Source of the DNA: Hamadaea sp.
GTDB taxonomy: Bacteria; Actinomycetota; Actinomycetes; Mycobacteriales; Micromonosporaceae
NCBI RefSeq assembly: GCF_013362815.1
Contig: NZ_JABFVK010000097.1
Coordinates: forward strand, 1-64,000
Length of the DNA stretch: 64,000 bases
Reading direction: 5' to 3'
A model generated the notes under the pieces. It was not told the origin of the DNA and did no database searches. It saw nothing but the letters and a program-made list of their open reading frames with translations. Position numbers and translations under genes: made by a program. How positions within the stretch are numbered: position 1 is the first letter of the stretch; each line of letters starts with the position of its first letter. Below, one piece after another: positions 11,438-16,005 of the stretch.

Positions 11438-12025
11438 TCAGGTGAGCTGGCCGATCGCGTCGATGAGCAGCCAGACGCCGAAGATCACGAACAGCACGGC
11501 CGCGCCGTATTTGATCGCCTTCTCCGGCAGCGCCTTGCCGAGCCAGCGTCCGACCAGGATCGCGAGGGCGTCGGCCGCCACCATGCCGACGGTCGAGCCG
11601 ATCCAGGTGCCGAACCACCCGTGCTGAGTTGCGAGGGTGATCGTGGCCAGCATCGTCTTGTCGCCGAGCTCGGCGAGGAAGAATGCGCCGCCGACGGCCC
11701 ACAGCGCGGATCGGCCGGCACGACCGGCTTTGGCCTTCTCGTCGTCGGTGAGGCTGTCACCGCGCAGCGTCCACGCGCCGAACCCGAGGAATGCGATGCC
11801 GGCTGCCAAGCCGATCCACCCGGTCGGCAAGGCCGCCCCGAGTCCGTAGCCGATCGCGACCGAGACCAGGTGCACTACCGCGGTGGCGATGCTGATGCCT
11901 GCCAACACCGTCGTTGCGCGATATCTCGTTGCGAACGTCATCGCCATGAGCTGTGACTTGTCGCCGAGTTCGGCGACGAAGACCACGCCGAAACTGATCG
12001 CGAGCGCGACCAGGAAACCTTCCAC
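11438..12025 (-). CDS. TMEM165/GDT1 family cation (Mn2+) exporter
   Basis: A 195-residue membrane protein with two homologous halves, each opening with the family signature: VAELGDKSQ (TM1) and LAELGDKTM (TM4). Six transmembrane helices with a short charged central loop (DSLTDDEKAKAGRAGRS). The family moves Mn2+/Ca2+ against H+ and bacterial members export Mn2+. The start is GTG 12025 with GGGAGGA six nt upstream, and that Shine-Dalgarno lies inside a hairpin downstream of a yybP-ykoY riboswitch, which fits Mn2+-induced expression. Confidence 0.92.
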   Translation of the reverse strand: MEGFLVALAISFGVVFVAELGDKSQLMAMTFATRYRATTVLAGISIATAVVHLVSVAIGYGLGAALPTGWIGLAAGIAFLGFGAWTLRGDSLTDDEKAKAGRAGRSALWAVGGAFFLAELGDKTMLATITLATQHGWFGTWIGSTVGMVAADALAILVGRWLGKALPEKAIKYGAAVLFVIFGVWLLIDAIGQLT

Positions 12026-12031
12026 TGTGCG

Positions 12032-12057
12032 TCCTCCCGGGGTGTACGCCGGGAGGA
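12032..12057 (-). promoter_or_regulatory. Shine-Dalgarno-sequestering hairpin
   Basis: On the minus strand TCCTCCCGG (12057-12049) pairs perfectly with CCGGGAGGA (12040-12032) around an 8-nt loop; the second arm contains the GGGAGGA ribosome site of the GTG at 12025. This is the likely expression platform of the riboswitch, off when the hairpin forms. Confidence 0.7.
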
Positions 12058-12084
12058 GAACGCGTGCGACGACCTCGACCCGGC

Positions 12085-12215
12085 ATGGCTGCCTGAGCCG
12101 AAGGTCTCGCCCACCCGTCCTCGGTCACGCCGAGTGCGGGCCGGAGGACCGGGTCCCGGGGGACCAGTGTGTCGACCACTCCGTGGGGGGCTACTCCCCT
12201 TCGCTGCGGATGAGG
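12085..12215 (-). ncRNA. yybP-ykoY family manganese riboswitch
   Basis: On the minus strand the leader of the GDT1-type gene carries the family's conserved blocks in order: AGGGGAGTAGC (12200-12190), GTCGACACACTGG about 22 nt later, a variable GC-rich arm, and GGGCGAGACCTTCGG near 12113-12099. These are the conserved sequence blocks of the Mn2+-sensing yybP-ykoY aptamer, and regulation of TMEM165/GDT1-type exporters is its known role. Ends are approximate because I did not fold P1. Confidence 0.85.
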
Positions 12216-12323
12216 CTACCGGGCCGTCGGTTACGGGCGGGCGACGACGTGATCAAGGCCACGGGCAACGTTTCGGGGTCCCGATTCCGTCTCCTTCACG
12301 ACGGGCTAGCGGGGGAGGGCCGG

Positions 12324-14206: not shown

Positions 14207-15394
14207 TTGTCTCAGCCCTTCGCGGCCGTCACCGAATCCGGTACGGCCACTGTCACCGTGTTCGCCGCGCCCACCAGCTGGATCGAGTCCGACGCCGTCG
14301 CGCAGTGCCATCAGGTCGCGGCGTTGCCGGGCATGATCCACGTCGCCGGGATGCCCGACCTCCACCCCGGCAAGGGCGCCCCGATCGGCGCGGCCATGTC
14401 GTCGTCCGTGCTCTATCCGCTACTCGTCGGCTCCGACATCGGTTGCGGGATCGCCGTCTTCCCGATCCGGCTCAAGCGCGTCGTGCCCGAGAAGCTCGCG
14501 GCCCGGTTCCCCGACCTCGACGTGCCGCTGCATCCGGCGGTGGACGCCGACGACCCCGCCTGGTCGGTGCTCGACGGCGAGATCATGGCGAACATCCCGG
14601 CCGGTCACCTCGACAGCCTGGCCACCGTCGGCCGAGGCAACCACTTCGTCGAACTCGCCCGGGTCGGCCCGATCCTGGCGGCCGCCCACGCCGAGCGCAT
14701 TGAGCTCGCCGAAGGCGACCTCGTCCTCATCGTCCACAGTGGCTCCCGGGGATTCGGCGAGCGGATTCTTCGTGAGCACACCGAGGTCCACGGCGCGGGT
14801 CCGGCCGCCGATCCAACGGCGTACCTGGCCGCCCATGATGACGCCGTCCGGTGGGGTTCGCTCAACCGGCGGCTGATGGCAGCCCGGGTCGCGTACGCGT
14901 TGGGAGCCGAACCGGCCGACCCGATCGTCGACGAATGCCACAACCTCGTCGAAGTACGCGACGGCGGTTACCTGCACCGCAAGGGAGCCGCCCGCGGCGA
15001 CGGTCGCGACGTGCTGATCGCCGGCACCCGCGGTACGCCGTCCTACCTGGTGGCGGCGCATGCCGGGGCGGAGGCGAACTACTCCGTGGCGCACGGGGCC
15101 GGACGTAAGATGTCGCGCGCCGACGCGCTGCGGCGCGGTCGCGCCAAGCACACCGTCGAGGAGTTGCGGCGTACGCCGGTCGGCTCGGTGGTGGTCTGCG
15201 GCGACCGGCAGCTGCTGTTCGAGGAGGCGCCGACGGCGTACAAGCGGATCGAGCAGGTGATCGGCGACCTCGTCGGGCATGACCTCGCGACGCCGATCGC
15301 CACGACGATTCCCCTCGTCACCTACAAGACCGCCGAGGCGGGCGCCGCTGACGGGGATGCCCGACGCGACCGGCGGAAGCGGGGCCGGCGGTGA
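14207..15394 (+). CDS. RtcB-family RNA ligase, PrfH-associated type
   Basis: A 395-residue RtcB: LPGMIHVAGMPDLHPGKG, PLLVGSDIGCG with the metal-binding Cys80, GRGNHFVEL, VHSGSRGFGE and AHGAGRKMSR with the guanylylated histidine at residue 296. It joins 3'-phosphate (or 2',3'-cyclic) and 5'-OH RNA ends using GTP and Mn2+. It is somewhat shorter than housekeeping RtcB and, like the RtcB copies paired with PrfH, is followed by a GTGA-overlapping release-factor-like gene. TTG 14207 is the only start that keeps the N-terminal strand; its ribosome site is weak. The C-terminal tail is basic (DARRDRRKRGRR). Confidence 0.9.
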   Translation: MSQPFAAVTESGTATVTVFAAPTSWIESDAVAQCHQVAALPGMIHVAGMPDLHPGKGAPIGAAMSSSVLYPLLVGSDIGCGIAVFPIRLKRVVPEKLAARFPDLDVPLHPAVDADDPAWSVLDGEIMANIPAGHLDSLATVGRGNHFVELARVGPILAAAHAERIELAEGDLVLIVHSGSRGFGERILREHTEVHGAGPAADPTAYLAAHDDAVRWGSLNRRLMAARVAYALGAEPADPIVDECHNLVEVRDGGYLHRKGAARGDGRDVLIAGTRGTPSYLVAAHAGAEANYSVAHGAGRKMSRADALRRGRAKHTVEELRRTPVGSVVVCGDRQLLFEEAPTAYKRIEQVIGDLVGHDLATPIATTIPLVTYKTAEAGAADGDARRDRRKRGRR

Positions 15395-16005
15395 GCGTAC
15401 ACCTGCTGTTGTCGGCTGGACGTGGCCCGCAGGAATGTGCGTGGGCTGTAGCGATGCTGGCCCGCCGGCTCGAAGCCGACGCCGGGCGACGCGGGGTGAC
15501 CGCTCGCCGGATCGAGACCGTGCGCGGCGAGCGGCCGGGCACGCTGCTGTCGGTGCTGGTCGCGCTCGACGGCGAGGACACCGGAGCCGTGGCGGCGTTC
15601 GCAGCGAGCTGGACGGGAACGCTGTGCTGGCAAGCGCCGAGTCCTTATCGGACGGTGGGCCGGAAGAACTGGTACGTCACCGCCCAGCCGTGCCAGGTCG
15701 ACGCCGAGCGGATCGGATTCGACGAGTCCGAGGTGGACGTCGTCGCGTGCCGCACCGGCGGACCGGGCGGCCAGCACCGCAACAAGGCCAGCACGGCGGT
15801 ACGGGCGACGCACCGGCCGACCGGCACGGTCGTCGTGGTGGACACCGAACGGCACTTCGCACTGAACCGCCGCATCGCGATGCAGCTGCTTCGCAGCCGG
15901 ATCGCCGAGCGGGACGAGGCGGCCGGGCGTGAGCTCGTCGCCGGTCGATGGCGAATCCACGACGAGCTGATCCGGGGCAATCCGACGCGGGTCGAGCGCC
16001 CCTGA
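15391..16005 (+). CDS. prfH: peptide chain release factor H-like protein
   Basis: A 204-residue protein with the class I release-factor catalytic loop TGGPGGQHRNKAST (GGQ at residues 126-128) but without the codon-recognition domain, which is the PrfH layout. The N-terminal VHLLLSAGRGPQECAWAV opening is also typical. PrfH releases peptides from ribosomes whose 16S rRNA decoding centre has been cut, after which the partner RtcB can reseal the rRNA. GTG 15391 overlaps the rtcB stop (GTGA), so the two proteins are coupled. A hairpin follows 15 nt after the stop. Confidence 0.9.
   Translation: MSVHLLLSAGRGPQECAWAVAMLARRLEADAGRRGVTARRIETVRGERPGTLLSVLVALDGEDTGAVAAFAASWTGTLCWQAPSPYRTVGRKNWYVTAQPCQVDAERIGFDESEVDVVACRTGGPGGQHRNKASTAVRATHRPTGTVVVVDTERHFALNRRIAMQLLRSRIAERDEAAGRELVAGRWRIHDELIRGNPTRVERP

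Follow-up and report, generated by a model that had tools for sequence, protein, structure and literature searches.

A probable Mn2+ riboswitch of the yybP-ykoY class, of a form without P2, precedes a GDT1-type exporter gene in an actinomycete

The association of yybP-ykoY riboswitches with genes of the UPF0016 (GDT1) family is known already: in a review, the riboswitch was found at 328 of the 333 bacterial UPF0016 genes screened, and Mn2+ was transported by all six members of the family that had been studied (PMC7380456). The locus described here is a further case. The closest known relatives include the riboswitches of X. oryzae and L. lactis (RF00080), whose crystal structures have a four-way junction that includes P2; in the X. 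oryzae structure, the Mn2+-selective contact is A48, which lies in L3 (ACAUACU) (PMC6754395). In E. coli, the class is represented by the validated leaders of mntP and alx, and the former acts as a translational on-switch in which the ribosome site is hidden without Mn2+ (PMC11647493). The same combination of exporter family and riboswitch class occurs, in a different phylum, at mneA (UPF0016) of V. cholerae and V. parahaemolyticus (PMC13274385). Lastly, C. glutamicum terC has a yybP-ykoY leader supported by RNA-seq, which begins 6 nt away from where Rfam places its start (PMC3890552).

We analyzed a 64,000-nucleotide stretch of Hamadaea sp. DNA (hereafter, the window), in which an open reading frame on the minus strand (Table 1) matches PF01169 with an E-value of 3.5e-43 (Pfam). 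Its translation contains two E-x-G-D-K-(S/T) motifs (AELGDKSQ and AELGDKTM), and thus the family signature, E-x-G-D-(K/R)-(S/T). Upstream of the gene, the minus strand read 5′ to 3′ from 12206 to 12023 presents the yybP-ykoY blocks, then two hairpins, and then the GTG start codon. The blocks are, in order, GCGAAGG-GGAGUAG (12204-12191), GUCG-ACACACU-GG (12176-12164), and GGGCGAGACCUUCG (12112-12099). This order, together with the Pfam match, bears out the original prediction, made from the letters alone, that all conserved blocks of the aptamer stand upstream of a GDT1-type exporter. The span then proposed, 12032-12215, encloses a real feature, but its upper end was set too far out, as 12215 enters a conserved -10-like box and the aptamer proper is confined to 12206-12098. 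In our assessment, the leader is very probably a Mn2+ riboswitch of the yybP-ykoY class, in an actinobacterial form without P2, that turns on translation of the GDT1 manganese exporter through a relay of alternative pairings.

Table 1. Features of the leader and the exporter gene (positions in the window)
Feature	Position	Strand	Evidence or remark
-10-like box TAGCCT	12213..12218	-	Predicted start ~12206-12204, at the 5′ edge of the aptamer; weak
yybP-ykoY (Mn2+) aptamer; three-way junction, no P2	12098..12206	-	Leave-out covariance model and covariation
P1.1 switch helix, 5′ strand CGAAGG	12198..12203	-	99.5% of cells paired, 72 homologues
P1.1 switch helix, 3′ strand CCUUCG, beginning of segment A	12099..12104	-	Covariation alignment
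L1 GGGGAGUAG	12191..12199	-	3′ side is CGAGA, 12109-12105; invariant in 72/72 from the second base onward
P1.2	12191-12188 with 12112-12109	-	Pair at columns 18/117 covaries: UA 32, CG 20, UG 7
P3.1, 5′ strand	12173..12183	-	Partner 12151-12142; both-side changes in 5/8 pairs
L3 ACACACU	12166..12172	-	A at 12170 invariant, 72/72
P4 hairpin	12114..12140	-	Alignment covariation and folding
Segment A	12104-12090	-	P1.1 3′ strand and following bases
Segment B	12086-12073	-	Relay
Segment C	12057-12046	-	Relay
Segment D	12040-12032	-	Shine-Dalgarno arm
Antiaptamer hairpin A:B, CUUCGGCUCAGGCA / UGCCGGGUCGAGG	12073..12103	-	-18.1 kcal/mol; mutually exclusive with P1.1
Antisequestor B:C, 5′ strand AUGCCGGG, partner CCCGGCGU	12079..12086 with 12053-12046	-	Part of B with part of C
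Sequestor hairpin C:D, UCCUCCCGG-8 nt-CCGGGAGGA	12032..12057	-	9 bp, -17.2 kcal/mol
Shine-Dalgarno GGGAGGA in D, 3′ arm of sequestor	12032..12038	-	6 nt upstream of GTG
GDT1/UPF0016 divalent cation exporter gene	11438..12025	-	195 aa; GTG start at 12025-12023

A scan with the Rfam model RF00080 had been put forward as one check on this assignment, with a score below threshold as one possible refutation. At the gathering score (45 bits), RF00080 makes no call in the window, and a permissive scan yields a local match of 17 bits, to P3, which counts against our reading. When the same library was applied to the E. coli controls, mntP scored 41.6 bits, likewise below the cutoff, and alx gave no match at E-values up to 5. 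Nor does RF00080 exceed its cutoff in any of the 296 genomes of the class. Since validated members and a whole class of genomes fail in the same way, the low score is no evidence against membership, and with the current Rfam model it is unsound as a criterion for refutation; we discarded it as a decisive test once the positive controls had failed as well. In the model as printed, the P1 pairs are absent and the GAGACC block is unrecognisable.

We therefore relied on covariance models built from the clade itself. Model R3 comprises 65 leaders, with the window and its congeners left out and with zero proteobacterial sequences, whilst its sister, R2, includes the window. R3 finds the window's leader with 73.3 bits (E 6.1e-20; 14.1 bits at the second-best place) and, built from actinobacterial leaders alone, recovers alx (35.1 bits, E 2.4e-9) and mntP (28.1 bits, E 3.3e-7) of E. 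coli at their known places in the respective leaders. R3 has matches in 133 of 151 genomes of the Micromonosporaceae and in 32 of 149 genomes sampled across the phylum; R2 matches 169 of the 296 class genomes (E 0.01). Set against the complete lack of RF00080 calls in those 296, this last count implies that most actinobacterial Mn2+ riboswitches have been missed, and that annotation based on RF00080 would leave actinobacterial exporters without their regulator. Among the best 80 GDT1 homologues in GTDB genomes, the leader is at the same place in all 80, in genera including Catellatospora, Micromonospora, Actinoplanes, Pseudonocardia, Rhodococcus, and Nonomuraea. Among the whole-genome homologues, one close Micromonosporaceae GDT1 gene (L100, G036:C96) has no aptamer, and the gap to its upstream gene is short. 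The Hamadaea genome also encodes a second, distant GDT1 paralogue (G000:C83:103200-103769, 32% identity), which has no model match, R2 finding one site only in that genome.

Aptamer homology, the helices, and their covariation were all computed. Across 72 non-redundant aptamers, the proposed structure is paired in 96.2% of cells, falling to 29-46% when the partner is slid by 1-3 columns. Both-side changes occur in 15 aptamer pairs, and none of 500 shuffles reaches any of five measures. There is little or no variation in P1.1, in L1, or in the ACA of L3. Pure coincidence, in which a GC-rich leader happens to offer random hairpins and motif look-alikes, might be argued from the missing RF00080 call and from a whole-leader folding energy just modestly lower than that of shuffled sequences (z -1.8); we regard it as having next to no chance, as the three blocks in this order turn up a single time in the 64 kb window and in none of 100 dinucleotide shuffles, and conservation with covariation of the leader across dozens of genera already refutes it.

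With the X. oryzae and L. lactis riboswitches, the window's aptamer shares P1.1, both sides of L1, the L3 bulge with its Mn-contacting adenine, P3, and P4, as well as a Mn-handling gene downstream. In contrast to them, its junction is three-way, its GC content is much higher, it goes unrecognised by RF00080, and it has no terminator platform. We looked for a P2 between P1.2 and P3, where a few linker bases leave no room for one; P2 is thus absent and the junction three-way. As E. coli alx, a validated member, is by alignment also without P2, we did not count P2 as a defining feature, and its absence here is a variation already found among validated members. The alx leader further shares the P1.1/L1 blocks, but has an L3 of the UCAUUAC type and precedes TerC/Alx rather than GDT1. 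The mntP leader has the same type of L3 and is a translational on-switch, as predicted here, but differs in possessing its own P2 hairpin, another exporter family, and another platform. One irregularity, a bulged U in the window's P3.1 that is absent from most relatives, speaks against our reading. Membership of the aptamer in the yybP-ykoY class is supported by covariation, by the invariant Mn-contact residues, and by homology to the validated mntP and alx leaders.

In L3, A12170 is the equivalent of the Mn2+-contacting A48 of X. oryzae and A41 of L. lactis (residue role: PMC6754395). Breaker and colleagues expect a changed ligand in some yybP variants (PMC7266159), and the window has C in L3 where X. 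oryzae has U49. Even so, another divalent metal, or pH, in place of Mn2+ seems to us improbable: neither the Mn-selective adenine nor any of the L1 contacts varies (72/72), both C and U at the variable L3 position adjoin GDT1 genes in the family, and the downstream gene belongs to a Mn2+ transporter family (PMC7380456). Established knowledge of the class would make Mn2+ the ligand, "on" the direction of its effect, and Mn2+ export the function of the protein. Where the original prediction held that the riboswitch identifies the exporter's substrate, we go less far, and infer Mn2+ from the riboswitch class and the protein family.

Transcription probably starts near 12206-12204. In 58 of the 72 homologues, a TANNNT motif stands 11-12 nt ahead of the aligned 5′ end, and a start at the edge of the aptamer agrees with that of C. 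glutamicum terC. We looked for a consensus -35 element upstream of TAGCCT and found none, a point against our reading that makes the evidence for the -10-like box weak. An early version of P1, pairing GGUAGCCU (12220-12213) with AGGCAGCC (12094-12087), was dropped, given that its upstream arm falls on the conserved -10-like box and that P1.1 is, by homology, CGAAGG/CCUUCG.

Between the aptamer and the gene, four segments, A to D, can pair in a chain (Table 1). On the alignment, A:B is paired in 94.6% of cells (59 homologues) and B:C in 93.7%, the covariation score of the latter being matched by none of 500 shuffles; C:D is paired in 67%, a weaker value that is in part due to arms shifted by indels. 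We therefore also compared the duplex energy of each genome's own segments with that of segments dealt from other genomes. The three chain pairings are matched within genomes (A:B, z -11.4; B:C, z -6.9; C:D, z -6.3), whereas the non-chain pairings in the same test are not (A:C, z 0.2; A:D, z 0.3; B:D, z -0.6). Shuffle controls of this kind leave some relatedness, but the signal persists when the set is thinned to 17 divergent leaders (A:B, z -6.6; B:C, -5.2; C:D, -2.2), with controls near zero. Matched neighbors and unmatched controls are the pattern expected of a relay. The GGGAGGA that had been predicted to lie in a 9-bp hairpin is confirmed there (12038-12032, in hairpin 12057-12032), and the arrangement is also conserved: in 62 of 62 homologues with a recognised Shine-Dalgarno, the platform fold pairs half or more of it, a count to be read with the GC-richness of the leaders in mind, as it has no shuffled control.

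The antiaptamer/antisequestor relay, overlooked in the original prediction, would explain how the state of the aptamer reaches this hairpin. Without Mn2+, segment A, which includes the 3′ strand of P1.1, would pair with B to form the antiaptamer hairpin, leaving C free to pair with D, so that the Shine-Dalgarno would be buried and translation off. With Mn2+, an ion between L1 and L3 would hold P1.1 together; B would then be free as it is transcribed and is assumed to capture C before D emerges. Once B:C had formed, the Shine-Dalgarno would be open and the exporter made. We infer the co-transcriptional order of capture. When the aptamer is enforced in equilibrium folding, the sequestor is still favored by ~4 kcal/mol (-81.9 vs. 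-77.9), a point against our reading, and the switch must therefore depend on co-transcriptional folding or on unmodelled contacts. As equilibrium folding favors the sequestor in both states, thermodynamic folding alone was discarded as proof of switching.

We looked for an intrinsic terminator in the leader and found none, and intrinsic termination was dropped accordingly. Transcription could still be the main point of control, with the same aptamer, if Rho terminated the untranslated mRNA in the off state and the Shine-Dalgarno hairpin were secondary; E. coli mntP is reported to be under Rho-dependent control besides its translational riboswitch (PMC11647493). We consider this unlikely here, given that the leader has no intrinsic terminator and that C:D pairing around the Shine-Dalgarno is matched within genomes. 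Translational control, as predicted originally, is the best reading, supported by the missing terminator and by sequestor, antisequestor, and antiaptamer helices that are matched within genomes.

Whether the GDT1 leaders of actinobacteria constitute a P2-less subclass of their own, largely invisible to RF00080 and equipped with an undescribed, conserved A-B-C-D co-transcriptional relay platform, is a broader proposition to which we would give even chances. Neither the subclass nor the platform was met in the literature that we searched, a search of limited reach. The relay offers a testable mechanism for the control of manganese efflux in Micromonosporaceae and much of the Actinomycetes. A simpler, direct platform is seen in the TerC-type leaders L163, L181, L185, and L187, where the antiaptamer hairpin that competes with P1.1 carries the Shine-Dalgarno in its own 3′ arm.

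At other actinobacterial loci, the aptamer lies upstream of GDT1, TerC/Alx, and sodium/calcium-exchanger genes, a set of targets consistent with metal efflux. Two aptamers with an mntP-like L3 (L178 and L188) precede genes of the sodium/calcium exchanger family (PF01699), whose products may thus export Mn2+. At L172, L173, L179, L180, and L182, aptamers of the Alx type, in which pyrimidines follow the L1 sequence GGGGAGUA and L3 is CGUCANUACGG, stand before genes for two unknown proteins, a PGPGW membrane protein, GreA/GreB, and V-type ATP synthase subunit D, which have no obvious link to Mn export; these leaders are possible candidates for a change of ligand or a broader regulon. A further Alx-type aptamer (L189) precedes a gene for a long protein (724 aa or more) whose covered part matches nothing in Pfam or NCBIfam. 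Elsewhere in the window, on the plus strand at 14207-16005, a gene for an RtcB-family RNA ligase is directly followed by one for peptide chain release factor H (PrfH) (NCBIfam NF007153 and TIGR03072), which is the known RtcB-PrfH pair.
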